From the IMG/VR virus record IMGVR_UViG_3300027847_000003, positions 1 through 32,399 of that record: a stretch of DNA of 32,399 nt; one strand, written 5' to 3'. This DNA comes from a virus. Each line of letters begins with the position of its first letter. Within the stretch, counting starts at the first letter, position 1. Below are positions 4,413-32,399 of this stretch, one piece after another. The notes beneath the pieces are model-generated. The model did no database searches. It saw only the letters and a program-made list of their open reading frames with translations, and was not told the DNA's origin. The position numbers were made by a program, and so were the translations under genes.

Positions 4413-5088
4413 ACAGTTCCTCTAGGGGTTGTGCGCTCGACACGGGCGCAGTGGTGAGAAGATGACGGAGTCCCACGGTATCGGCCGTCCGGTGCCGGCG
4501 CTCGCCGGCGAATTCCTCGGGGAGGGCCATGTAGTTATGACCAGGACTCAGGGATATCCCGCACGTCACGACAGAGTCAGCCCCCGCCATGAGGGCCAGA
4601 CACGCCGCCGCGACCCCAGAGGATAAACAATAGGCGTCGTCCAGGTCTGTGATCCCGGCCCATTGCCCAATCCGCGCACGGTCGCCCATGCCGATCTCTG
4701 TGGCCTGATCCCAGGTCGTCCCCTGTGCCGCGAGTCTCGCCGTGGTGTGTTCGGACTGGTCGCGCATGAAGATCACGAGGTGCCCCACGTGCCGCCCCGC
4801 CGACTGCGCGAGCATCTGGGCGTGGCACCATCTCCGGGCGTCTGACCACGTATCGACATAGGGACCGTCCGTGTAACGCCGCCCATTCGTGATATAGACA
4901 TCCACATCGGGCGCACTGGCGATCCCTCCATTCACCGCCAGAATCAGATCAGACGGTGTCCGCGTGATCGCTGCGAGGTCATCCCCCACCGTAGGAGACG
5001 ACCCGACAACGAGAACCCGACGGCCCGTGAACGCCAGCCCACGAAGCCGTCGGAGTGTGCCCGCAAACGCACTGACTAACGTCAGCAC
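4399..5088 (-). CDS. Rossmann-like protein resembling the DUF115/MptE group (229 aa)
   Basis: The segment VLVVGSSPTVGDDL (about residues 25-38), followed by DLILAVNGGIASAPDVDVYIT, has the beta-loop-alpha pattern with a G-x-S-P-T loop seen in 6-hydroxymethylpterin-kinase MptE-like/DUF115 proteins and in some glycan-modifying phage proteins. Later it shows a Gly-rich GITDLDDAYCLSSGVAAAC region. The start is GTG at 5088. An enzyme-like Rossmann protein between the decoration-like and portal genes is uncommon. It may modify a nucleotide or a surface glycan, or be a repurposed structural protein. The fold call is moderate; the function is unknown. Confidence 0.7.
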   Translation of the reverse strand: MLTLVSAFAGTLRRLRGLAFTGRRVLVVGSSPTVGDDLAAITRTPSDLILAVNGGIASAPDVDVYITNGRRYTDGPYVDTWSDARRWCHAQMLAQSAGRHVGHLVIFMRDQSEHTTARLAAQGTTWDQATEIGMGDRARIGQWAGITDLDDAYCLSSGVAAACLALMAGADSVVTCGISLSPGHNYMALPEEFAGERRHRTADTVGLRHLLTTAPVSSAQPLEELYAQS

Positions 5089-5574: not shown

Positions 5575-6522
5575 TTACGTGAAGAGCACGCCGCCGCGTG
5601 CGCGGTTCCGGGTTGCCAACTGTGCCACGCTGAAGATCTTCATGTTCATCATCGCGGCGTTGATGTGCTCCACCGGGGTCCGGCGCTGCCTCCAGGCAGA
5701 CTTGACCACAAAGAGGCACGTGTCGTGGGTGTTATACATCCACGCGCTGTCAGTCGAACTCTGGCCCGAGAAGATGTAGTCAGCCTGCTTGAACTGCAAC
5801 GCCTTAAACCCACCCGAGGCCGTCCCCGCGTTGTTCACGAAGCGCTGATTCGGCGTGAGCGCCGCCTCATACGAGGCATGAAGCGTCGCGCTCCCAACCA
5901 CCACATTCGGCTGACGACCCGAGCTGCCGAAGGAGCACGAGTTCCACAGCGTCGTGTAGTCCGCGAGCAGGGTGGCCCCGGTGTCCGTGCCCCAGTCCTT
6001 GTACTGGTTCTTGAACCACGTCTCCGTCCCCGACACGATGGTGCCCACGGTGCCCGTGCCGTCCTCGGTGAACAGATCGACCAGCGTGTTGAACCCGTCC
6101 GTGCCACCAGTCGCGGCGAAAAAGGCCGTTTCCAGGGTGCGATCGTGCGTGGTCAGCGCGTTATCCACGATCGACGACACGAGATCAACCTTCTGGCTTT
6201 TCTCGGAGTTGACCGCTTCGTCGAACATCGTCCAGTTCACGGGGACCACCAGCGGCACCATCGAATAGGATGCAGCCGTGAGAATCTCCGTTTTGCTGGT
6301 GCCCGTCGCGGTGCTGTCCGTGGCGAGAAAGTCCGCCGCGGGGTTCGACTGGTAATCGAGGGTGAGCTGGAGCGTTGCGCCGCCGTTGATCCGCTTGACG
6401 CCGCCGATCTTCTCCAGATGCTTCAGAAAACTGGAGTCACTCCAATTATCTGCCGCCTTGTTGCGTTCGTTGACCACATCATCGTAGGTCGATGCGACCA
6501 GCTGTGTGAATGGGATAGCCAT
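5575..6522 (-). CDS. Major capsid protein (315 aa)
   Basis: Expected to have the HK97 fold and form the head shell. The N-terminal region (MAIPFTQLVASTYDDVVNER) is followed by typical capsid motifs: GGATLQLTLDYQ near residue 48, a long central helix around VDLVSSIVDNALTTHDRTLE (about 113-132), and a C-terminal beta region ending ARGGVLFT. It has a strong ribosome site (AGGAGGT, eight bases before ATG), its own promoter at 6645-6673 and a 5' hairpin, consistent with very high expression. It follows the scaffold-like and polyvalent genes and precedes decoration and portal genes. Confidence 0.88.
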   Translation of the reverse strand: MAIPFTQLVASTYDDVVNERNKAADNWSDSSFLKHLEKIGGVKRINGGATLQLTLDYQSNPAADFLATDSTATGTSKTEILTAASYSMVPLVVPVNWTMFDEAVNSEKSQKVDLVSSIVDNALTTHDRTLETAFFAATGGTDGFNTLVDLFTEDGTGTVGTIVSGTETWFKNQYKDWGTDTGATLLADYTTLWNSCSFGSSGRQPNVVVGSATLHASYEAALTPNQRFVNNAGTASGGFKALQFKQADYIFSGQSSTDSAWMYNTHDTCLFVVKSAWRQRRTPVEHINAAMMNMKIFSVAQLATRNRARGGVLFT

Positions 6523-6644: not shown

Positions 6645-6673
6645 ATCTTACGCCTCAGCGTTCAGCGTGTCAA
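6645..6673 (-). promoter_or_regulatory. Strong sigma70-type promoter for the capsid operon
   Basis: On the minus strand, TTGACA (6668-6673), a 17-base spacer and TAAGAT (6645-6650) match the bacterial housekeeping promoter consensus closely. The -35 element contains the TGA stop of the polyvalent gene. The predicted start is near 6638, giving a leader of about 116 bases before the capsid ATG. Confidence 0.75.
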
Positions 6674-9246
6674 GAGGCTTCGACGTTCCTCCGGGCGATA
6701 TGTTCCGTAGACGGCCCCACCCCCGTGAGGTCCGCGATACCGTCGTTCTCCTCCGCTTGCCTACGCAGCCCCTCGATCACCGGGAGCGACACGCCGTATT
6801 TCCTGAGAATCTCGATGGTGCTGGCGTCGAACACCACGTAGTTGCTGGTGCCCTCACCGGCTGCGCGGGAGCCTTGGTCCAGATACTTGATGCCGGGGAT
6901 GCCGGCCAACTGCCGAGTAGCGGCGATGTCGTCTACCTCTCTCCCGACTGACGTATACGCATCCCCGCGATCCATGTGCGACATCGCGTTATAGGCTCCA
7001 CCGCCTGTCTTGTCGTACTGCCTCCCGTACGAATCTGTCAGCGTGTGCTCGTCCTTTGACCACACACCACGAGCCTCTAAGCCTTTATCTATTTCGCCTT
7101 TCACTCTTGCGCTCTGCTGACTCAGGGGCGCGTCCCAGTCGAGGAAGTCGGCGGGATCGGCGTGGATGTTGACTTCGTAGGTGCGGCCACGCTCAGGTAG
7201 TTTTAGGCGATCCCATAAACTCCCAGCAGGCCCGGATAAGGCTACTTCCCCGCCCTCTTGGTGCAATTTCAACGCTGCTCTAATCTGTGCAGCCCCGTCA
7301 TCTCCGATAGTGCGACGAGCTAAGTCCTCAACTCCAAGAGTCGTCAACTCTGTCGGCTTGCCTCCATACATTGAGGTGCCGGACGGATCATATCGGTACG
7401 TGCCCATGAGTGGGTTATTCCCCGGAGACAACGCCTCCTTATACCCCGCCGCCACCCCCTCATTCTCCGCAAAATACAGCCCATGCCCGTAGGCTTGCGC
7501 CCCCTCACCCGTGCCGATGTTCTCCGACCGGAACCGGCCCATCGGTGCCCCCGGTTCCGGCGCAAAGTCATGCGGGGAGCCGTGATACGCCTTGATCGGG
7601 TTCGCCACTCTGTTCGTCAGCACCTCGGCGGCCGCTTTCGCGGGGGTAAATGACGGCCGCACGAAGGCGTAATTTTTGTCGCCCAGTTTCGTCGCTAAAC
7701 CTCTATCCACGAAGCTGTCCCACATAGATACCGCATCTGGGGTCATTTCGTGAACTGTCTCTCCAGTCATCAGCGTACGCGGCCCCGTTGAACGCAACGG
7801 GTTGCCAGTCGCCTCAAGACTTCTCGCGTTTATGTCTGAATACGCTCGCGATGCTATCCCCTGACGCTGCAACTCATCAGGGACGAGGGCATTGCGAACC
7901 ACAAACCCATCGGGAGACTCATGGACGGTGAACATTGGCCCTCGTCGGGCCTTCGCTAACTCAGGCGCGCCAAGCGTGTCGTAAGCTGAGAAATTACCCT
8001 CCGGAGTAGCGAACGATCGGACGTTATTGGCCGTTTTGTTCGTCAGCACCTCGGCGGCCGCTTTCGCGGGGGTTTGGAATGGCTGCTTGGTTGCCACCAA
8101 ATCTGCTGGCAATAAATACTCTATCGCGCCCTTGCCGCCCCCGACATTTACCCGCGCATACGTCTCTGCCAGTTCAGACGGCGCATCGACCGTGTACGTT
8201 GTGTGGCCTGCTACCCCGTGCCCGTAGTCGGCGGCATTAGATAGATCGTCGGAGAACAGCCGCCCTCGCTCGCTGCGGAATGAATCGTATTGTTCTGGCG
8301 TCAGGTGCTTTTTTAACCATTCACCCTGATCCCCTAAGTCGTTTGCTTCCACGCGATATAATCGCTTCGTCAGCACCTCGGCGGCCGCTTTCGCGGGGGT
8401 TTGCAAGGGGGCCATTAACTGAGAGGCCCGGAGGTACGCCGACGCGAGTGACGGATCAACATGAAACGTGGCGAGGTATTCACTTGGGCTTGATATGTCA
8501 CCAGCCCCGATAGCCTCACGGATGTCGGTCACGATCCCCCTCGCGTTTTGCGACCCTCCCCCAGACGCCCGGTATTGACTCGGCAACATGTCTACAATCT
8601 CACGTTCGTCTATAGGGGGAAGGTCTTTTATCGCCCTCCCACCACTGAGGGGCATCCCAGACTCGCGGACGACGACAGCCGGGACATTGCTTGCTTGTAA
8701 TTCGTGCGCCGCCCCCAGTCTGTGTTGCCCTTCAAGCACGTACGCGCCATCCGGCCCTCTGACGACAATCAAAGGGTCCATCCTTCTCGATTCCCTGATC
8801 GTCTGCGACAGTTCCGCCGTCCGCTTCGCCTCACTCACAGAATACGACAATGGACGATCCCCGAGATCGCTCAATGGCACCGACTGTAACCCCGGCTCTA
8901 CGACGTAGCCCCGGTCAAGGGACGACTCCAACGAACCCATATTTGACACGTCTTCGCCAGAAATGAAGGGACCCATGTCATCCCCTGCCTTTATGGCCTT
9001 GAATGATATGGTCGGCTTCTTCGTCAGCACCCGCGCGGCCGCTTTCGCGGGGGTTTGCAAGGGGGCCATCAGCCCGAGGACTTGACTCTGCGGGTCCTCG
9101 ACACCTGCCGCTTTCGCCAAGGATCGGAAGACATCCTGCCAACTGGTCGTATTACTCCCCCGGTGGGCTTGCCCCTGATCGGGTTGTGGCTCAGGGTTGA
9201 GCCACGCTTTGAGCCAGCCGGGTGTCGGATCAGGGTAAATCGGCAT
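6670..9246 (-). CDS. Polyvalent multidomain protein: ParB-like, ART-like, GNAT-like and ART-PolyVal-like modules (858 aa)
   Basis: Four modules are separated by four copies of a 14-15 residue linker with core TPAKAAAEVLT (residues 63-77, 281-295, 390-403, 533-546). Residues about 80-200 carry a ParB/sulfiredoxin-type motif (VLEGQHRLGAAHEL). Residues 296-389 resemble a small ADP-ribosyltransferase fold (LYRVEA, GRLFSDDLSNAADYG). Residues 404-532 show a GNAT-like acetyl-CoA loop (RQGIASRAY). Residues 550-858 start with AYHGSPHDF and GTGEGAQAYGHGLYFAE, the signature of the ADP-ribosyltransferase domain of phage polyvalent proteins. In that class the protein is thought to be packaged and injected to alter host targets. 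It lies among head genes, immediately after a 47-codon gene. The first and last modules are recognised well, the middle two tentatively. Confidence 0.8.
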   Translation of the reverse strand: MPIYPDPTPGWLKAWLNPEPQPDQGQAHRGSNTTSWQDVFRSLAKAAGVEDPQSQVLGLMAPLQTPAKAAARVLTKKPTISFKAIKAGDDMGPFISGEDVSNMGSLESSLDRGYVVEPGLQSVPLSDLGDRPLSYSVSEAKRTAELSQTIRESRRMDPLIVVRGPDGAYVLEGQHRLGAAHELQASNVPAVVVRESGMPLSGGRAIKDLPPIDEREIVDMLPSQYRASGGGSQNARGIVTDIREAIGAGDISSPSEYLATFHVDPSLASAYLRASQLMAPLQTPAKAAAEVLTKRLYRVEANDLGDQGEWLKKHLTPEQYDSFRSERGRLFSDDLSNAADYGHGVAGHTTYTVDAPSELAETYARVNVGGGKGAIEYLLPADLVATKQPFQTPAKAAAEVLTNKTANNVRSFATPEGNFSAYDTLGAPELAKARRGPMFTVHESPDGFVVRNALVPDELQRQGIASRAYSDINARSLEATGNPLRSTGPRTLMTGETVHEMTPDAVSMWDSFVDRGLATKLGDKNYAFVRPSFTPAKAAAEVLTNRVANPIKAYHGSPHDFAPEPGAPMGRFRSENIGTGEGAQAYGHGLYFAENEGVAAGYKEALSPGNNPLMGTYRYDPSGTSMYGGKPTELTTLGVEDLARRTIGDDGAAQIRAALKLHQEGGEVALSGPAGSLWDRLKLPERGRTYEVNIHADPADFLDWDAPLSQQSARVKGEIDKGLEARGVWSKDEHTLTDSYGRQYDKTGGGAYNAMSHMDRGDAYTSVGREVDDIAATRQLAGIPGIKYLDQGSRAAGEGTSNYVVFDASTIEILRKYGVSLPVIEGLRRQAEENDGIADLTGVGPSTEHIARRNVEAS
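7609..7650 (-). repeat. Linker repeat copy 4 in the polyvalent gene
   Basis: Encodes FTPAKAAAEVLTNR, joining the GNAT-like and ART-PolyVal-like modules. Its central bases are the same as in copies 2 and 3, so the repeat is conserved in DNA as well as in protein. The 5' edge differs: the Gln codon of the other copies is missing. Confidence 0.85.
8038..8079 (-). repeat. Linker repeat copy 3 in the polyvalent gene
   Basis: Encodes FQTPAKAAAEVLTN, joining the small ART-like and GNAT-like modules. The DNA matches copies 2 and 4 through the TPAKAAAEVLT core. Confidence 0.85.
8362..8406 (-). repeat. Linker repeat copy 2 in the polyvalent gene
   Basis: Encodes LQTPAKAAAEVLTKR, joining the ParB-like and small ART-like modules. 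With its upstream flank (LMAP) it is nearly identical in DNA to copy 1. Confidence 0.85.
9016..9060 (-). repeat. Linker repeat copy 1 in the polyvalent gene
   Basis: Encodes LQTPAKAAARVLTKK between the N-terminal tail and the ParB-like module. The upstream LMAP flank is shared with copy 2. The core differs from the other copies by an E-to-R change. Confidence 0.85.
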
Positions 9247-9390
9247 TTACTGCACCGTGTGACGCTGATAGAGCAGAATGTCCCGCACGGACGCCTCCAC
9301 CGCGCGGGGCGAGCGCCCCGACACCCGTGACTTGACCCCGTGCGTCAGCCGGTAGGAGACGAGAATGGTGAACATGGGCGAGTCTACCAC
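9247..9390 (-). CDS. Small hypothetical protein between scaffold-like and polyvalent genes (47 aa)
   Basis: The frame fills the gap between its neighbours exactly. A GTG at 9388-9390 overlaps the scaffold TAG (TAGTG) behind a GGGGCGG ribosome site, and the TAA directly abuts the next ATG (TAAATG). An internal ATG at 9375 is an alternative start giving 42 residues. The product is basic with a short hydrophobic start (MFTILVSYRLTHG) and no recognised family. The neat junctions are the main support. Confidence 0.6.
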   Translation of the reverse strand: MVDSPMFTILVSYRLTHGVKSRVSGRSPRAVEASVRDILLYQRHTVQ

Positions 9391-10475
9391 TAACCGCCCC
9401 GCTCCAGCCGCGCCAACGTCTTCGCCGCGATGTCCGACGTGCTCACCGTCCCCGTCCTCGGGGCGTCTGTCGGGCCACGGGAGACAGAGGTGCCTTTCGG
9501 GGCGGTGTTGAGTTCTGCGAGGATTCTCGCTCGCATCGCCTTGTCGTTTTCCGCGAATCTCGGGGCCGATATCTTCAGATACGCCCCCTCTAACGTCAAC
9601 CTCGGGCGCTGTCCGGCCGCCCTCGCGGCGGTGCTGTCGGCTTCGAGTGCCCCTAAGACTTCCTGCTGGAACGGCGTCAAGGAGCCGTCCTGCGCCATAC
9701 TGCCAAAGAGGGGCCACGTCTGCGCCTCCTGCATCTGGGTGGACATGGTCTGGTGGAGTTGCTGCTCGAACGCCTGCCGCTCCGTCCGCTGGCCCGCCGC
9801 CTTCTCCCGGTCGGTGAAGGGCTGGAGACGGGTATCGATCTCCTTCATCGACTGCCGACGGTCCCATTCTCTCACCGCTCGCATGCCCTCAAGGGAAAAG
9901 GTCTTCTGCCCGTTCCCGAGGTCGAGATCGGGGCCGGGTTCGGGGTCGTCGTCTCGGGCGGGTTCAGCCGGCGCCGCTGGTGGTTCAAGGAACACCTTAT
10001 ACCGGGTGTCGATGGAGGCCAGTTCCGTCAGAAACGCCCGAGGATCGCCCGTCACCCCTTGCTGAAGCTCTGCCAGTTGCCCCCGCGAGGTCTTCAGCTC
10101 CGTTTCGAGCGTGGTGCGCTGGAGGTCAAACGCCTCCCGTCCCTTGCGGAGGCCGTTCTCGATGATCCGCCGGACTTTCGGCTTCGGAATGCGCTGCTTC
10201 TCGTCCTTGTCGTATCCGGCATCCAGCATGAGCTGATCGGCCTCGGACACTGCCTTTTCCGGTTCAGGGGCGGGGTCGGCCTTCGCAGGGTCGGCCGGTT
10301 CAGCCACGGTGTCTACCGCTGCGGGGGCCTCGGCGGCCTGTTCGGGGTCTGCGTGTTCGGCCTGTTCGGCCTCGTCAAACGCCTCGATCACCGCTTCGGC
10401 GGCTTCTGACGTGGTGCTGATCGGGTCTACGTCGCTGATCGGATCACTCGGGGTGCTGCTAACTGGTTCGTCCAT
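9390..10475 (-). CDS. Scaffolding-like protein (361 aa)
   Basis: A very acidic, Ala/Glu/Pro-rich N-terminus (about 1-90) is followed by a coiled-coil region (about 105-145, including TTLETELKTSRGQLAELQQG) and a charged helical C-terminus. This composition and its place between large terminase and capsid genes are typical of scaffolding proteins, which direct capsid assembly and then leave or are degraded. There are no Cys or membrane segments. The ATG directly abuts the preceding TAA. The call rests on position and composition. Confidence 0.75.
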   Translation of the reverse strand: MDEPVSSTPSDPISDVDPISTTSEAAEAVIEAFDEAEQAEHADPEQAAEAPAAVDTVAEPADPAKADPAPEPEKAVSEADQLMLDAGYDKDEKQRIPKPKVRRIIENGLRKGREAFDLQRTTLETELKTSRGQLAELQQGVTGDPRAFLTELASIDTRYKVFLEPPAAPAEPARDDDPEPGPDLDLGNGQKTFSLEGMRAVREWDRRQSMKEIDTRLQPFTDREKAAGQRTERQAFEQQLHQTMSTQMQEAQTWPLFGSMAQDGSLTPFQQEVLGALEADSTAARAAGQRPRLTLEGAYLKISAPRFAENDKAMRARILAELNTAPKGTSVSRGPTDAPRTGTVSTSDIAAKTLARLERGG

Positions 10476-14772: not shown

Positions 14773-14942
14773 GGCTTCGCCCCGTGCTCGGCCTCAAACC
14801 GCACCAAACACGCGCATTTCGTCAGCGTCGGCAGCGGAAACGACTTGCCCATATCCGCGTAGCCCGCCAGGTATCCCGAGCTGTTACAGACACCACAGGA
14901 CACGAAGATCGGGCGCTCGGGCGTGGGCTTACGCTTTGGCAT
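14769..14942 (-). CDS. Small zinc-binding-like protein with MPKRKPTPERPI leader (57 aa)
   Basis: Start at ATG 14942, behind a GGAGAAGG ribosome site and overlapping the previous stop by 14 bases. After the leader comes CGVCNSSGYLAGY and then KCACLVRFEAEHG, two Cys pairs that could bind zinc. The same 12-residue leader and the same 14-base overlap recur at 16206-16337 before a different body. Confidence 0.7.
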   Translation of the reverse strand: MPKRKPTPERPIFVSCGVCNSSGYLAGYADMGKSFPLPTLTKCACLVRFEAEHGAKP

Positions 14943-15093
14943 TCGCCTTCTCCGGTATCCACAGCACGCACTCCACATACGCCCCGCCCGGTACCCGCTT
15001 GACGTGCGCCGCGTTCTCCACGGACGCCTCCGTGATCTTCGCCAGCACCTTCCGGGCCTGCTCGCGGTAGAGATCGTGGGGATCGGGCGTCAC
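14929..15093 (-). CDS. Hypothetical protein (54 aa)
   Basis: GTG at 15091-15093 overlaps the upstream TGA (GTGA). The ribosome site (GAGGAAGGGGAAGG) is supplied by the codons of the upstream basic peptide's tail. The product is a short alpha/beta protein (DLYREQARKVLAKITEAS) ending EKANAKA, whose last codons overlap the next start. Confidence 0.65.
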   Translation of the reverse strand: MTPDPHDLYREQARKVLAKITEASVENAAHVKRVPGGAYVECVLWIPEKANAKA

Positions 15094-15209
15094 CCCTTCC
15101 CCTTCCTCGGCCGGGGCCGCTTCGCATTCAGACGGCAAGAATGGGTCTTCTTGTCGCTTGTGGCTTGGCCGCCCTTCCGACCGAGGGCGACAGCGTTTGG
15201 ATCCTTCAT
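15090..15209 (-). CDS. Basic micro-protein of the KDPNAVALG / CRLNAKRPRPRK family, copy a (39 aa)
   Basis: ATG at 15209 overlaps the TGA of the GNAT-like gene. The protein begins MKDPNAVALGRKGGQATSDK and ends in a very basic RPRPRK tail. A related peptide is fused to a winged-helix protein at 20674-21099, and a disrupted copy lies at 20581-20677. Here it is a separate gene whose stop overlaps the next start. It may bind nucleic acid; the function is unknown. Confidence 0.7.
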   Translation of the reverse strand: MKDPNAVALGRKGGQATSDKKTHSCRLNAKRPRPRKGKG

Positions 15210-16209: not shown

Positions 16210-16337
16210 CCCCGCCCCTGCCCATACAACTTGGCCTCTCTCTGAGGGAGCTTGCGCCATTCCTTCTTGAGCCACGTCACCAGAAACTTGTCCATCAATT
16301 TGATCGGACGCTCGGGGGTGGGCTTACGCTTTGGCAC
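16206..16337 (-). CDS. Small protein with MPKRKPTPERPI leader and WLKKEWRK body (43 aa)
   Basis: Starts at GTG 16337, overlapping the upstream stop by 14 bases. Its leader matches that of the gene at 14769-14942. The body (FLVTWLKKEWRKLPQRE) resembles the C-terminal helix of the protein at 17724-18074 (TWLKREWRKTRR). It appears to be a mosaic of two modules found elsewhere in this genome. Confidence 0.6.
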   Translation of the reverse strand: MPKRKPTPERPIKLMDKFLVTWLKKEWRKLPQREAKLYGQGRG

Positions 16338-16464
16338 GCGTCCCCTTCGGCCTGCCGCCCTTCATTCCGTTCTTCCGTGCCGCCTCAGCCTTCGCCAAAC
16401 TCTTCGACCTGCCGCCCTTCACGGCGCCGAGTTTTCCGAGCGCGACCGCGTGGGGGTTCTTCAT
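16324..16464 (-). CDS. Basic micro-protein of the KNPHAVALG family, copy d (46 aa)
   Basis: ATG at 16464 overlaps the TGA of the upstream gene (ATGA). It begins MKNPHAVALGKLGAVKGGR and ends in repeated basic motifs (MKGGRPKGTRAKA). Short peptides with KNPHAVALG starts are widespread in phage and bacterial genomes but lack an assigned function. Its C-terminal codons overlap the next start in the same way as at 14929/14942. Confidence 0.7.
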   Translation of the reverse strand: MKNPHAVALGKLGAVKGGRSKSLAKAEAARKNGMKGGRPKGTRAKA

Positions 16465-20584: not shown

Positions 20585-20677
20585 GCCTTCGCCTTTCGGG
20601 GCCGGGGTTTCCGCGCATTGAGACGGCAAGAAATGGTCTTTTTCTCGGACTTGCCCTTGGCCGTCCCAGCGGCTCAT
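20581..20677 (-). pseudogene. Frame-disrupted copy c of the CRLNARKPRPRK micro-gene
   Basis: In the frame ending TGA at 20581, the codons read KSEKKTISCRLNARKPRPRK, matching copy b at 20674-21099, but a stop lies at the very start of the module and no start codon follows it in frame. The ATG at 20677 opens a different frame that runs through into the next gene. A 27-base block (20590-20616) is identical to 20983-21009. Confidence 0.6.
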
Positions 20678-21099
20678 GGCCGCACCCGGTATTCAAACGT
20701 GCCCGGAGAACGGCGCTGGCGCTCCACCACGTAGGAGCCAAAACGCGATTTACGGAGATCGCGCATTCTCGCGCTGATGCTTGCCTCCGGAATATTCAGG
20801 CGCTCATGAAGCTCGGCCAGTGACCGCCACACCGGATAGCGTGCCCGCATGTATTTCCGCACCGTCGCCAGTTGCCCCGTCAGCCGCTCGGCATCTTTCG
20901 CTGGCTCAAAGGTCGCCCCGTCAAAGGCTGGCTGACGAGTAAAAAGATCCGGTTGAGTCATGCCCGCCACTCCATCGACTCCCGCCTTTCGGGGCCGGGG
21001 TTTCCGCGCGTTGAGACGGCACGCGAGCGTCTTTTTCTCGGACTTGGCCTTGCCGCCGAGACGGCCAAGGGCAACGGCGGCGTGGAGTTTCCTGCTCAC
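20674..21099 (-). CDS. Basic CRLNARKPRPRK peptide (copy b) fused to a winged-helix protein (141 aa)
   Basis: GTG at 21099 has a strong AGGAGGT ribosome site. Residues 1-38 are the basic micro-peptide (AVALGRLGGKAKSEKKT and a basic RPRK end). After a short linker, residue 47 is a Met (20961) that would suit an independent gene starting MTQPDLF. Residues about 65-141 contain a winged-helix pattern (RSLAELHERLNIPEASISAR) found in small phage DNA-binding proteins. The fusion lacks the stop that separates copy a from its neighbour. Confidence 0.72.
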   Translation of the reverse strand: MSRKLHAAVALGRLGGKAKSEKKTLACRLNARKPRPRKAGVDGVAGMTQPDLFTRQPAFDGATFEPAKDAERLTGQLATVRKYMRARYPVWRSLAELHERLNIPEASISARMRDLRKSRFGSYVVERQRRSPGTFEYRVRP

Positions 21100-21768: not shown

Positions 21769-22008
21769 CTAAAAGGGCACGTCCTCGGCCGTGATCGGCG
21801 CGACAGGCTCGTCCGCGTGGCCGTCCGGCTGGCTCACCGCCTCCCGTGGCTTCGCCTTCAACACGCGCCAGTCGGGCGCCTTGTCGTTCGTCTTGTCCGT
21901 CTGCTTGAACATGACCACGCGCTCACCGTTGATCGTGCCCGTCATATACGGCCCCCTGCCGCTCGTCTTCTCCCACATCGCACCGATCTCATCTGGGTTC
22001 CTGGGCAT
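21769..22008 (-). CDS. SSB-like or DUF736-like protein with acidic C-terminal tip (79 aa)
   Basis: Short beta-type protein (YMTGTINGERVVMFKQTD, then KAPDWRVLKAKPR) ending ITAEDVPF, which resembles the acidic D-x-PF tip that bacterial ssDNA-binding proteins use to recruit partners. It sits between exonuclease and NinB-like genes. It could bind ssDNA during recombination; it is shorter than a canonical SSB. Confidence 0.65.
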   Translation of the reverse strand: MPRNPDEIGAMWEKTSGRGPYMTGTINGERVVMFKQTDKTNDKAPDWRVLKAKPREAVSQPDGHADEPVAPITAEDVPF

Positions 22009-22667
22009 TACCGCTCCTTTCGCATGGTTTCGAGTGCCGCTACTTCCGCTTTTACCGCGTCCAGAAACGCGATCACCCGCGCCTCACAGTCCGTGATCGC
22101 CGCCTCGTCCCGCTTGTGCTCGACCACCAACAGCGCCAAGTCTGCCGGGAGCCGGTCGTCGAAGCTGGCGAAATACGCCATCGGCGCACCCGTGAGCCAC
22201 ATATTGAACGTGACTTGCGGCATGTAGGCCGGAGGCACCACCCCCGCCCGGAGATACCCGATGTGCGTATGTGTCTTCGGGCACTTCACTTCGAGGATCG
22301 CCTCCGGGGCGCTCACGTCCCCAACATGCCCATCGAGCGAGCACCCGGCCTGTAAGGTGTCATGGCTGAGAAAGCCGCTCGTAGAGGCCAGCAGCCCCGT
22401 TGCGGCCTCAAATGCGGCGAAGGCGTCGGCCTCCTTGTCGATCCCCCGCTGCATGTGGGCCGGGAGGGTAAATTCTTCCTCAAGGCTCATGCCGGTAATG
22501 CGCTCACAGGCCAGTTTCAGGATCAGATCCCGCCGCGCCACGGAGATCTCGCCCTTCTTCCGGCCTTCCTTGTAGAGCACGTCGGCCACGCTGCCGGTCA
22601 GTCTGCCGGCTCGCGAGGCAAACCACTCAGCCGAACGCTGGGGGTCATTCTTGACGGTGTAGCTCAT
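22008..22667 (-). CDS. YqaJ-type (lambda exonuclease family) recombination exonuclease (219 aa)
   Basis: The PD-(D/E)XK core is visible as D112 (SLDGHVGD), E126 and K128 (ILEVKCPK), with the preceding basic helix and the following HIGYLRAG and YMPQVTFNMW regions typical of YqaJ nucleases. It would resect double-strand ends 5' to 3', giving ssDNA for the annealase encoded just upstream. ATG overlaps the annealase TGA. Confidence 0.9.
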   Translation of the reverse strand: MSYTVKNDPQRSAEWFASRAGRLTGSVADVLYKEGRKKGEISVARRDLILKLACERITGMSLEEEFTLPAHMQRGIDKEADAFAAFEAATGLLASTSGFLSHDTLQAGCSLDGHVGDVSAPEAILEVKCPKTHTHIGYLRAGVVPPAYMPQVTFNMWLTGAPMAYFASFDDRLPADLALLVVEHKRDEAAITDCEARVIAFLDAVKAEVAALETMRKER

Positions 22668-23299
22668 GCCGCCGCCTTGTCGGCCCCATCAGCGGCCACC
22701 TTGAGCGCGTCCGTGGCGCTCTTGCTGGTCGCCTTGCGGAATGCCTCGGGGCTGTCCTTCCACGCTTCGCGCAGCGGGATCGTGCCCTTCACCGACTCGT
22801 CCTGCAACGCCGTGAGCCAGTCGTCGTAGCCCTCTGGCTTGGCTGGCTTCGTCGCCTCTGGCGTCGTGGCGTCGGCGTCGTTATCCCCTTCGGTGGGGAT
22901 GCAAAACGTCTGAAAGGCCGCGTATTTGTAGGCTGCGCTCATCGCCTTATTCGTGGCCTTGTCGGCGCTATCCTGTGCCTCTCCGAACGTCCGAACGGTA
23001 TGACGGCTCTCTGGATTCTTGGCCGCCACAAAGTCAAACTCGGCCTCGACCGTGACGAAAAACTGCGCCGATCCAGATCGGGCGGTTCGCTCCACACATT
23101 CCCGCGACAGGATACGGGGCAAGATCACCAATTTGTGCTCGGCCAACATCGGCGCGAGCGCGTTATACACGTCATCAATGCCACGGAAGCTATACCCCTG
23201 CTGGACGTTCTTCCGCCCCTTCGCAATGCCGCCCTTCGCCATATCTGCGCTGACGAGCGAGATCAACTCGTACACCGTCGCCTTCGTCACTGTGTCCAT
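22664..23299 (-). CDS. erf: ERF-family single-strand annealing protein (211 aa)
   Basis: Start at ATG 23299 (MDTVTKATVYEL), behind a GGAGAAGGGGAG ribosome site. The family motif GYSFRGIDDVYNALAPMLAE lies at about residues 35-55, followed by a core beta region and GEAQDSADKATNKAMSAAYK. The C-terminus is Ala/Lys/Asp-rich and probably flexible. ERF proteins form rings on ssDNA and pair with exonucleases in phage recombination and genome circularisation. Confidence 0.9.
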   Translation of the reverse strand: MDTVTKATVYELISLVSADMAKGGIAKGRKNVQQGYSFRGIDDVYNALAPMLAEHKLVILPRILSRECVERTARSGSAQFFVTVEAEFDFVAAKNPESRHTVRTFGEAQDSADKATNKAMSAAYKYAAFQTFCIPTEGDNDADATTPEATKPAKPEGYDDWLTALQDESVKGTIPLREAWKDSPEAFRKATSKSATDALKVAADGADKAAA

Positions 23300-23397
23300 G
23301 CGCTCCCCTTCTCCCACATCCACCGCACACCCTCGACCGCGCCCCAGACGATCAGGGCCAACCCGAGCAACCCGAATGCCGTCAGGGCTTCTGCCAT
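23287..23397 (-). CDS. Small single-pass membrane protein (36 aa)
   Basis: ATG at 23397; residues about 6-24 are hydrophobic (LTAFGLLGLALIVWGAV), followed by a Trp/Arg-rich end (EGVRWMWEKGSAWTQ). It overlaps the annealase start and the previous micro-ORF. Membrane topology or function cannot be stated. Confidence 0.55.
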   Translation of the reverse strand: MAEALTAFGLLGLALIVWGAVEGVRWMWEKGSAWTQ

Positions 23398-24689: not shown

Positions 24690-26042
24690 CGACTCAGAGG
24701 AGTGTGACGCCATAAGCGCCTGAAGCGCCCGCGTAAGTTGCGGCCCGTATTGCCCACTACGCGCCAAGCCTACTCCTGTTCGAGTCAGTCCCCTCGGGGT
24801 AGCTAACGCTGCGCCTGCCAGGGCGGTAGCGATGCCAGCCTCCGCGCCTCCGCCAGCGCCCACAGCCCCGCCCGCGCCTAACCCTACCAGCCGCGACAAA
24901 ATGTGCCCGGTGTTCCCAGACTGATCGGCGGCCTTAGCTAGATTCCCGAGAACTTGCGTGCGCTGGTTTACTCCTCCGAGGCCAGACACAATCGCCTCTA
25001 ATTCTCTCCGTAACCCCGTAGCGACAGCCACATCTGAAGCGGTCTGTGCCCCTGGAACCGGGCCACCGCGGCTCATAGAATCGTAGGCCGCCTTTGACAA
25101 TGCCTGCAAACGGCGCTTGATCGCCTGCGCCTCAACAATGGGTATACCGTTCGGGTGCTGCGCGATCAGTTCGCGGCCTTGCGCTAATACCTCAGCAATC
25201 TCCCTGCTGGCCCCCGAACGACCCACAGAAACATCAAGGGATAGATCGCCAATTACCGTATCGAGTTCCCGCGCCACCGTCGTCGGTGATACAGTCCGCG
25301 CCCCGGCATCCTGCGCCGATTGAATCATCGAGTCCGCTTGTTGTCGGTTCCCTGTCCGCAGGGTTGCCGCACGGCCAGAGCCGCCAGTCGTCAACGGAAT
25401 ACGCTCGTTGATACCCGCGTCGATCATGTCGTCCACGCCGGTCATGGCTGGCCCTCTGATCTTTTCCTTCAGCGTGCGCGGGAGTAGTCCAACCCCTCCC
25501 CTGTACGCCTGTCGCCCGAGCCATGACGCCCCACGACCTAGACCCTCGATCCCGCCCTGAATGGCTCCGTTGACTCCAATGTCTGTTGCGGCCTCTCGCG
25601 CTGACGACGGCGCTTGGTCCCCCGCCATCCGTGCGTCTATCTGACTGATCGCTTCTCCGCCAGCCCCGCCTAACGCTGCCCCTGGGATACCGCCGAACAT
25701 CGCACCTATCGCCCCGCCCACCATAGGCAATACTTCGCGCCCCTCGCGCACCTTCTGGGCCGCATCCCGGTCGGCCATCGCCATCACTGCTGGGAAGTTC
25801 TCTCGGGTCATCACACCAGGATAGCCCTGTAAGCCAGCACCAGTCCACGCCTGCGGCACGTCCGGGTCGCTGCCCACGGTGCTCTGCCCCATCATCCCGC
25901 GTGTGGCATCAGGTGGCAGTGTGGCTGCGGGTTGCGCGTATGCCGCGACCGCTTCCCGCGCCTCTGCCTCTGTGGGCGGACGATCCCCCTCGATGTCATA
26001 CTGCTGGCCGTCAATTTCCACAATGTAGGTCTGCTGTGCCAT
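24681..26042 (-). CDS. Internal virion / DNA-ejection-like protein (453 aa)
   Basis: The protein is Ala/Gly-rich with glycine-zipper hydrophobic stretches (MVGGAIGAMFGGIPGAALGG, about 105-125; LVGLGAGGAVGAGGGAEAG, about 395-413) that could insert in a membrane, and helical connecting parts. Such proteins in podoviruses form the ejected trans-envelope channel. The N-terminus (YIVEIDGQQYDIEGDRPPTE) is a small beta domain common at the start of phage internal proteins. It is the last gene of the structural series. Confidence 0.7.
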   Translation of the reverse strand: MAQQTYIVEIDGQQYDIEGDRPPTEAEAREAVAAYAQPAATLPPDATRGMMGQSTVGSDPDVPQAWTGAGLQGYPGVMTRENFPAVMAMADRDAAQKVREGREVLPMVGGAIGAMFGGIPGAALGGAGGEAISQIDARMAGDQAPSSAREAATDIGVNGAIQGGIEGLGRGASWLGRQAYRGGVGLLPRTLKEKIRGPAMTGVDDMIDAGINERIPLTTGGSGRAATLRTGNRQQADSMIQSAQDAGARTVSPTTVARELDTVIGDLSLDVSVGRSGASREIAEVLAQGRELIAQHPNGIPIVEAQAIKRRLQALSKAAYDSMSRGGPVPGAQTASDVAVATGLRRELEAIVSGLGGVNQRTQVLGNLAKAADQSGNTGHILSRLVGLGAGGAVGAGGGAEAGIATALAGAALATPRGLTRTGVGLARSGQYGPQLTRALQALMASHSSESSQ

Positions 26043-27220
26043 CAGCGCAGCCCCAGCACGCGAAACCCGCCACTAGACGGGGGCGGGGCAGACCCGTCAC
26101 CACGAATGCGATCTGGTTTCATACTTGAAAAGGAAATGACCTTCTCCATCGCACCCCTGATCTCCATCAACCGCTCTAAATATGTTCCCTCGCTTTGCGC
26201 CGTCTTCAACATGGCTGCCGCGTTTTCCAATACGCTCAATTCGCGCTCGCTTAAAGCCCCAAATCCAGTCGCCCCGGTGCGTGACTGCGCCTTGAGTTCG
26301 CGCAATGTGTTGATGTCCATTTTCGCCAAGAGGCTATCTATGGCGAATATCGCATCCGACTGGTCACTCATCCCAGGCAAACCCAACCGGGCAATCGGGG
26401 CCGGGACTCTCGCCCCGCCTACTACCTTCTTCGTATTGTCGTTTAACCTGAATGCCCCAGACTCATCGACGACCATCAGCCTATCTAATTCGGTCATCAC
26501 GCCGTTGGCGAAATCTAGCTCCCCAACACGCGCCCGCTCACCCGCTAATCTGGCGTCCTCCTGTTTCTGGTTCGCCGTATCGACCTGCGTTTGCAGTAAC
26601 TCATTCCGGAGGGCGCCCGTTTCCCGCTGGCCCTGTGCGGCAAAACTCGCTATGTCTACCCGTGCCTGATTAGACGCTTCCGATCGTTCGGCGCTGGCCG
26701 CAGCGGTCGCTGCCGCTTGTTCGGCTCTAGCGGCCTCGGTCGCCCGCGCCGACAGGAAACGGCTCCCGCCACGCATAACCGACTGATCCGGCGCCTGGTT
26801 TACCCCATAGGTGGGGATATAGTCATTCTCAGCGCTCTCGGCCTCCACCATTGGACCCTGCGATATAACCCCTGGGACGGTTTGGACCTGCCCCCCATAC
26901 CCCTGCTCAGACAACATCGCGGCAGTCTGCTCATCCACCGGATCGCCTGGGAGCGCGTTCCCAGCGATCGTCGTGGCCCTCCGGAATAACCGCTCGTCGT
27001 CCAGGCCCGTCTGTGTCAACTCCCGCAGTCGGGCCGACTCCTCTACTTGCTGCCGCTGAACGGCGATGGCTTCTGACTGGCGCTGTATGTCGGCGTTCTG
27101 CTTTTCCATCGCGGCGGCATCCAACATCCGCTGGCGCTCCTCCATTTTCCGCTGAACGAGAAACTGCTGGATCGCGTTCCCGGCATCAGCGCCGGGGGAC
27201 CGGAAGTCATAGCGGGGCAT
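26042..27220 (-). CDS. Coiled-coil internal virion-like protein (392 aa)
   Basis: A long charged coiled coil (about residues 20-75) is followed by an Ala/Glu-rich helix (about 165-245), and then a motif RELKAQSRTGATGFGALSER, found in internal proteins of several podoviruses. Its TGA overlaps the next ATG by one base (TGATG). A DNA-ejection role is inferred from composition and neighbours. Confidence 0.7.
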   Translation of the reverse strand: MPRYDFRSPGADAGNAIQQFLVQRKMEERQRMLDAAAMEKQNADIQRQSEAIAVQRQQVEESARLRELTQTGLDDERLFRRATTIAGNALPGDPVDEQTAAMLSEQGYGGQVQTVPGVISQGPMVEAESAENDYIPTYGVNQAPDQSVMRGGSRFLSARATEAARAEQAAATAAASAERSEASNQARVDIASFAAQGQRETGALRNELLQTQVDTANQKQEDARLAGERARVGELDFANGVMTELDRLMVVDESGAFRLNDNTKKVVGGARVPAPIARLGLPGMSDQSDAIFAIDSLLAKMDINTLRELKAQSRTGATGFGALSERELSVLENAAAMLKTAQSEGTYLERLMEIRGAMEKVISFSSMKPDRIRGDGSAPPPSSGGFRVLGLR

Positions 27221-28014: not shown

Positions 28015-28989
28015 CTAGATCGTGCCCCAGTTATAGTTCCACTTATTCCGGTCGTTCCACTCGCGTAAAGCCAGCTCCCGCATGAACTGATCGTTGTTCT
28101 GATACAACCCCTGCCGCTGGAGGTCCAGCCCCCCGAAGCCGAGCGCTCCCTGGAGGTCCTGCCCCCGCGCACCGAGACTGATCCCAGCCTCCCCAATGGC
28201 CTGATCCATCATCCCGAGTTGCATCTGGAGGTTCCGCTGCTGATCGCCCGACAACATGCTCCCTTGCATCTGGAGGGCTTGCGCGATCTCATCCCTCCGC
28301 GACTGCAATTCGCGTGACAAGAGTTGCGCCTGAAACCCGCCCACGCCTTGCCCGAGACGCTCTTGGGTCATCCGGCGTTCGCCCTGGATATTCGCCAGCG
28401 CCCCGCCACGCTCCGCGATGGTGTCCAGGTAGTCGTTCCGCGAGCGCGTGCCCTCGTTGCGGTAGGCGTCCACCTGCCCACTGATGATCGGGTCGCTGGC
28501 GTCGATATTCAACCCCTGCTGTGCCCGTTGCTGCAACTGGCCGTAAAAGGCGTTGGATCGCTGGAGCGCTTGCTGTCTCGCGGCCTCCTGCTGGGCCATC
28601 TGCGCCGACATCATCCCGGCGGACCAGTCCGGCATGAGGTTCTGGCCCTGGTTGTTCCACGCCTGCGACGGCGTCCCCTGTGGTCCACTGGGGCCACTGG
28701 GGCCAGACGGTCCAGTCGGCGGAGGACCAGTCGGCGGAGGACCAGTCGGCGGAGGACCAGTCGGCGGAGGAGGATCCGTGGCGTTATTGGCTCGCGCTGT
28801 CACCTCTGTGCCAAGATCAACCCATGACTGGTTGTTCTCGTACACCGAGTCCCGCTCATTCTGGTCTGCCTCACGCCCCAGACGATCGCGGTAGATGCCG
28901 CCTACCGTGGCATCAGAGAGCGCCTTCGGCCCCATGATGTCCCAGTAGTTAACGTCAGACCCGTCCTCGAAATCGTCCCCGTATTCCAT
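28015..28989 (-). CDS. Gln-rich internal virion-like protein with PPPTG and GPS repeats (324 aa)
   Basis: The N-terminal 68 residues include a helical part resembling DUF4214-type segments (YRDRLGREADQNERDSVYEN). A Pro/Gly region of PPPTG units then GPSGPSGPSG follows (about 72-103), and the C-terminal 200 residues form a Gln/Met-rich helical domain (MMSAQMAQQEAARQQALQRS). This composition is common in podovirus internal or ejection proteins. Function is inferred from position. Confidence 0.7.
   Translation of the reverse strand: MEYGDDFEDGSDVNYWDIMGPKALSDATVGGIYRDRLGREADQNERDSVYENNQSWVDLGTEVTARANNATDPPPPTGPPPTGPPPTGPPPTGPSGPSGPSGPQGTPSQAWNNQGQNLMPDWSAGMMSAQMAQQEAARQQALQRSNAFYGQLQQRAQQGLNIDASDPIISGQVDAYRNEGTRSRNDYLDTIAERGGALANIQGERRMTQERLGQGVGGFQAQLLSRELQSRRDEIAQALQMQGSMLSGDQQRNLQMQLGMMDQAIGEAGISLGARGQDLQGALGFGGLDLQRQGLYQNNDQFMRELALREWNDRNKWNYNWGTI
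28712..28771 (-). repeat. Four tandem 15-bp repeats (PPPTG-encoding)
   Basis: Four identical 15-bp units in a row encode repeated PPPTG. The array is in frame and followed by a short GPS repeat. Slippage at this array could change the length of the linker without breaking the frame. Confidence 0.85.
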
Positions 28990-32142: not shown

Positions 32143-32399
32143 CTAGTACCATTCTGTAACTTGCCAGTTGATCGTCGCCACGATGGTCCCGATATTCCCG
32201 GCGTCATCACGCGTGGCCCTGACGGCTGTCGTAGACTGAATCGACAAACGTAGTCTATATTTGGTTCCCCAACCGGAATCAGCGATATCTTGCGCTTGAC
32301 CGAGGTAGGCAAGCTGGGTGTTAGCGGTCACCACCGCAGGGCTGAGTGTCGCATCGTTTGTCGCATTCGTGCCCGTGATCGAGCAGGTGCCGCGTTGGA
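32143..32399 (-). CDS. Small virion-type protein, 3' part of the gene crossing the circle junction
   Basis: This is the C-terminal part of the gene that starts at 227, with its stop at 32143-32145. Bases 32273-32399 duplicate 1-127, so only 32143-32272 are unique. An internal GTG gives a 63-codon frame if the window is treated as linear, but the intact 118-residue frame is the real one. Confidence 0.8.
   Translation of the reverse strand, partial: QRGTCSITGTNATNDATLSPAVVTANTQLAYLGQAQDIADSGWGTKYRLRLSIQSTTAVRATRDDAGNIGTIVATINWQVTEWY
32273..32399. repeat. Terminal direct repeat, right copy
   Basis: Identical to bases 1-127. Removing one copy leaves a 32,272-bp circle with the crossing gene intact. 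Confidence 0.95.

Follow-up and report, generated by a model that had tools for sequence, protein, structure and literature searches.

A phage polyvalent protein whose modules are separated by near-identical DNA linkers, and an allele that lacks one linker-to-linker cassette

Genome Context of the Polyvalent Gene

The stretch of viral DNA analyzed here (IMG/VR record IMGVR_UViG_3300027847_000003, positions 1 to 32,399; "the window," 32,399 nt in length) carries an exact direct terminal repeat of 127 bp (1–127 and 32273–32399). As L011 (sequences compared with the window are designated by L numbers) runs across the join, we conclude that the window holds the complete genome, which closes into a circle of ~32,272 bp. 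An 858-aa ORF on the minus strand, in a single frame without interruptions, encodes an N-terminal region followed by four modules (A to D), each with a short linker before it (Table 1). This ORF sits among late virion genes, flanked by the major head gene and by a gene without a family match that we call scaffold-like from its position.

Table 1. Coordinates of the polyvalent gene, its parts, its neighbors and the phage recombination genes in the window.
Feature	Position	Strand	Remarks
Polyvalent ORF, 858 aa	6670..9246	-	N-terminal region, linker 1, A, linker 2, B, linker 3, C, linker 4, D
N-terminal region, aa 1–64	9055..9246	-	resembles N-termini of L033, L076
Linker copy 1, TPAKAAARVLT	9020..9054	-	3 mismatches vs. 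core
Module A, ParB/Srx-like	8422..9018	-	LEGQHRLGAA motif; missing from L002
Linker copy 2	8366..8400	-	exact; longer MAPLQ flank in common with copy 1
Module B, 94 aa	8083..8364	-	family not detectable
Linker copy 3	8039..8073	-	exact
Module C, GNAT-like	7657..8034	-	RQGIAS; 49% identical to L100 cassette
Linker copy 4	7613..7647	-	exact
Module D, ART-PolyVal-like ADP-ribosyltransferase	6673..7612	-	relatives at 40–48% identity
Scaffold-like gene	9390..10475	-	upstream of cargo site; kept in relatives
Major head protein gene	5575..6522	-	downstream of cargo site
ERF-family single-strand annealing protein	22664..23323	-	PF04404, 1.1e-19
YqaJ-like exonuclease	22008..22667	-	PF09588, 4e-21

Among relatives found through their terminase or capsid (61–76% identity), the interval that separates the scaffold-like gene from the major head gene is ~170 bp with no cargo in L015, L016/L017, and L018, and is filled by unrelated ORFs in L012, L013, and L014; the polyvalent gene is thus optional cargo. 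Matches to the polyvalent protein were absent throughout three related records of 34–40 kb. At the cargo site of L014 (12938–14207), an FkbM-like methyltransferase and a T5orf172-like ORF were noted by eye, and given this content the scaffold/capsid gap resembles a general cargo hotspot. By module, GC3 in the polyvalent gene ranges from 0.59 to 0.69, below that of most structural genes (0.75–0.83).

Identity of the Four Modules

The original prediction had named the modules, in order, ParB-like, small ART-like, GNAT-like, and ART-PolyVal-like, and searches lent support, partly sub-threshold, to all of these labels except the second. Module A gave sub-threshold yet consistent matches to PF02195 (E = 3.6e-4, 21.0 bits, cut-off 26.3), PHROG ParB (E = 1.2e-4), and ParB in the PDB (E = 0.004), which favor reading it as ParB/sulfiredoxin-like. 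Module C had no match in Pfam; its GNAT-like assignment draws on a profile comparison, which matched it (hhalign E = 8e-10) to the GNAT modules of other ART-PolyVal proteins (L049, L042, and L038, the first two of which match GNAT Pfam models, but below cut-off), and it carries the GNAT motif RQGIAS. Module D is related at the identity given in Table 1 to proteins matching PF18760, and H11, Y47, and E268 are invariant in the alignment with these relatives; we take H, Y, and E to be the catalytic residues of ARTs. We call the module ART-PolyVal-like because its own PF18760 score (17.5 bits) is under the curated cut-off of 31.2; its close homologue L050 scores 53.9 bits, above the cut-off.

For module B, a small ART-like identity found no support: searches with Pfam, PDB, phage tblastn, and Foldseek gave no ART match, and the AF2 model was of low confidence (pLDDT 58). 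Foldseek matches of the module B and C models were set aside as meaningless at pLDDT 58 and 47, respectively. Modules A, B, and C had no tblastn matches in INPHARED, modules B and C matched only L001 and L002 in single-sequence viral scans, module C had no matches in GTDB genomes, and a plasmid search returned ART relatives only, annotated LPD23. Module C is reused beside other linkers: its likeness to the L100 cassette, which lies next to different linkers, runs from edge to edge.

Linker Conservation at the DNA Level

A core of 35 nt encoding TPAKAAA(E/R)VLT is present in four copies in the ORF, three exact and one with 3 mismatches, and 0 matches to it were found in dinucleotide shuffles. 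Copies 1 and 2 additionally have a flank in common, 94% identical over 51 nt, which adds ATGGCCCCCTTGCAA (MAPLQ). Given the codon preferences of this phage, two copies would agree by chance in every codon of the 11 residues with a probability of 3.4e-5, and three copies with one of 6e-9. The likeness of the linkers thus lies at the DNA level, with a codon match well past codon bias, and in the nucleotide-level alignment the synonymous sites are not saturated. These results confirm the original prediction of four near-identical linkers that are alike in DNA and not in protein alone, with a longer common flank for the first two copies. No homology was found on comparing the modules between the linkers with each other, so the array is not a diverged tandem duplication.

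One alternative is that protein function keeps the linkers alike, with each acting as a protease site or as a helix that forms a hinge or serves capsid packaging, and that modules change beside them because hinges tolerate junctions. We consider this unlikely: selection on protein leaves the synonymous identity in three copies unexplained, and a prohead protease was not recognized among the scanned proteins, although a linker does stand before every module and short repeated Gly/Ala-rich motifs occur at the joints in other lineages too. The exactness of the DNA conservation might also reflect a nucleic-acid function, such as an RNA hairpin, an internal start site, or a site-specific recombination site, a reading that we regard as highly improbable. 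Linker RNA folds no better than shuffles (z = 0.6), and a hairpin was rejected as not significant. GAGGTG is present in copies 2–4 and a GTG codon lies 12 nt past copy 4, but copies 1–3 are without a suitably placed start codon downstream; with only copy 4 having a GTG at a workable distance, internal starts were rejected as a general role of the linkers. A degenerate linker DNA pattern matched only this phage among viral contigs and had zero matches in GTDB genomes, and a site-specific recombinase was not recognized among the annotated genes, both of which count against such a function.

Other repeats occur elsewhere in the genome. A 70-nt repeat with the basic motif KKxxxCRLNAxRPRPRK (15099–15168, 20590–20659, and 20983–21052; 70–90% identical) forms the end of a short ORF once and the N-terminus of a longer ORF once, and its middle copy is in a different frame from the listed ORF. 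A 49-nt repeat (14907–14955 and 16302–16350; 84%) encodes PKRKPTPERPI in small minus-strand ORFs, at their start or close to it, and we read it as a further gene segment of the early region that has been reused. Within the minus-strand ORF at 28015–28989, a run of 15-nt direct repeats (28709–28783) encodes PPTGP repeats.

An Allele Without the ParB-Like Cassette

The IMG/VR contig L002 aligns with the window over 8.3 kb, minus exactly 654 nt. The missing DNA is the ParB cassette A, its length equals the distance from linker 1 to linker 2, and it is missing from this one contig only. To the left of the junction lies copy-1 DNA, and to its right the flank of copy 2. L002 and the window differ by three substitutions, all within the surviving linker, with 0 in the other ~8.3 kb; the probability of such confinement is ~1e-6, or 1.7e-4 if an adjacent pair among the three, which may represent one event, is counted as such. 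The substitutions are private to L002, occurring in no window copy, and include A to D and L to M, a tolerance that argues further against linkers held alike by protein function.

The clustering of substitutions in the linker suggests that recombination with a linker of differing sequence, and not slow drift, was at work. Because all three are private, simply joining copies 1 and 2 would not yield the L002 linker, and an unseen donor or later mutation would be needed. The comparison is compatible both with gain of cassette A in the window and with its loss in L002.

Repeats of 35–51 nt are classic sites of chimera formation and graph collapse, and the L002 junction lies 90–140 bp in from the start of the contig, contig ends being the parts where assembly is least reliable. 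We therefore considered whether the deletion is a repeat-caused assembly or PCR-chimera artefact. Neither collapse nor template switching can make the three junction-linker substitutions absent from the window copies, and like changes are seen in independent lineages (see below), so that an artefact appears quite unlikely. L001, from a different metagenome, has the arrangement of the window with 6 mismatches and a 1-base gap; the four-module form is thus not an error of one assembly.

Module Differences at Linkers in Other ART-PolyVal Lineages

Most of the 80 module D relatives that were retrieved, of 491 found, have a short N-terminus and one ART, without repeats. In three further lineages, which have linkers of their own (79–92% identical), modules have been swapped or duplicated at the linkers. 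L003 and L065 are 97.7–97.8% identical in the flanks on both sides and enclose unrelated modules, with a drop in identity at the linker edge (1.0 to 0.23); L100 and L101 carry a third module at the same site plus an added linker and ART unit, and their linker copies agree at 92% over 91 nt. Compared with L050, L075 has one extra module and linker, and the middle module differs between L029 and L039. In L090, a linker-containing segment of ~535 nt is duplicated (4473–5006 and 5859–6392, 97.8% identical), and the two copies precede two different modules in the same 1761-aa ORF. Module content is therefore not invariant among relatives. With linkers of this lower identity, a preference for hinge positions could also put the breakpoints at the linkers of these lineages.

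In a survey of exact repeats among 118 ORFs of at least 500 aa, six were repeat-bearing, four of them ART-PolyVal; the enrichment was given zero weight, since two of the four are from the same phage.

A Candidate Route for Cassette Exchange

The phage's own ERF and YqaJ recombination genes, proposed earlier as possible drivers of such exchange, are both encoded and adjoin one another (Table 1). By published values, RecA needs pairing segments (MEPS) of 31–34 bp and Red-beta segments of 23–27 bp, and phage D3 encodes an Erf that is an active recombinase, on par with Red (PMC3945230). Exact linker identity of at least 35 nt is, by these lengths, enough for a RecA or annealase route, and the ERF and YqaJ proteins are plausible agents.

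We infer that recombination at the linkers is the best mechanism for these observations, and it is probable, in our assessment, that the gene as a whole is optional polyvalent cargo of the ART-PolyVal kind with linker-bounded cassettes exchanged in this way. The N-terminus of the window protein is like those directly before the ART in L033 and L076, which suggests that modules A, B, and C were inserted between the N-terminal region and the ART. The ParB-like module, module B, and the GNAT-like module would each have come with its own copy of one short linker, the DNA of which has stayed near-identical since. Serving as in-frame homology blocks, the linkers would allow the ERF/YqaJ annealase/exonuclease pair, or host RecA, to recombine linker with linker, and a linker-to-linker cassette could be lost, gained, or replaced with the frame intact. 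The original prediction, that linker-bounded cassettes could be added, dropped, or exchanged, is supported by L002, which is without one linker-to-linker unit, and by the swaps in other lineages, which break at linkers.

Comparison With Known Systems

By its domain content and gene position, the protein likely belongs with the polyvalent proteins known from phages and conjugative elements (Iyer et al., 2017; PMC5512222), which have unrelated effector-type domains (ART, ParB, GNAT) in each polypeptide and genes beside virion genes, with predicted packaging. The ParB-like, GNAT-like, and ART-PolyVal-like modules are likewise unrelated effector-type domains in one polypeptide, by matches that are partly sub-threshold. 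Packaging in the virion and injection are predicted from gene position, the polyvalent class (PMC5512222), and a weak ejected-protein family match, and the modules would then act on the newly infected host. This match (E = 6e-7) lies elsewhere in the late genes, at 26042–27220, where a candidate ejection protein resembles phrog_2534 ("released from the phage upon host infection").

Iyer et al. (2017) do not use the word "linker" and raise cassette recombination as a possibility at one locus only, whereas in the window the joints are identical in DNA and an allele without one cassette was observed. In the open-licence papers searched, cassette recombination in polyvalent proteins was found no more than suggested; the linker-delimited cassette design and the module-lacking allele are new here. 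Polyvalent proteins have been described as gaining domains under an arms race, with no known route for domains to enter in frame. Repeated linkers are a possible such route, with an allele difference observed, and may also help to find new effector modules, since the content between two copies, for example module B, is a candidate domain.

Module D shares its level of identity and the invariant H, Y, and E with members of ART-PolyVal (PF18760), but three cassettes precede the ART in the window, unlike the short N-terminus and ART of most surveyed relatives. Recent domain reshuffling inside phage proteins was reported by Smug et al. (2023; PMC10684548), who do not describe polyvalent proteins, linkers, or a homology block repeated at each joint. 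Homology that is short or diverged can be recombined by annealases of the ERF type (De Paepe et al., 2014; PMC3945230); in that work, genome segments are exchanged between phages, whereas in the window the homology is repeated inside one gene.

In polymorphic toxin systems, domain diversity arises via recombination with toxin cassettes (Zhang et al., 2012; PMC3482391). The part exchanged there is the C-terminal domain of a secreted toxin, in contrast to the window, where the modules are internal to a phage protein and are bounded by a repeated linker. We tentatively put forward, at somewhat less than an even chance, that ART-PolyVal effectors across phages are open cassette arrays, with lineage-specific linkers as in-frame homology blocks at which annealases load, drop, and exchange modules on a population time scale. 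If true, such arrays would be akin to a viral counterpart of toxin-tip exchange.
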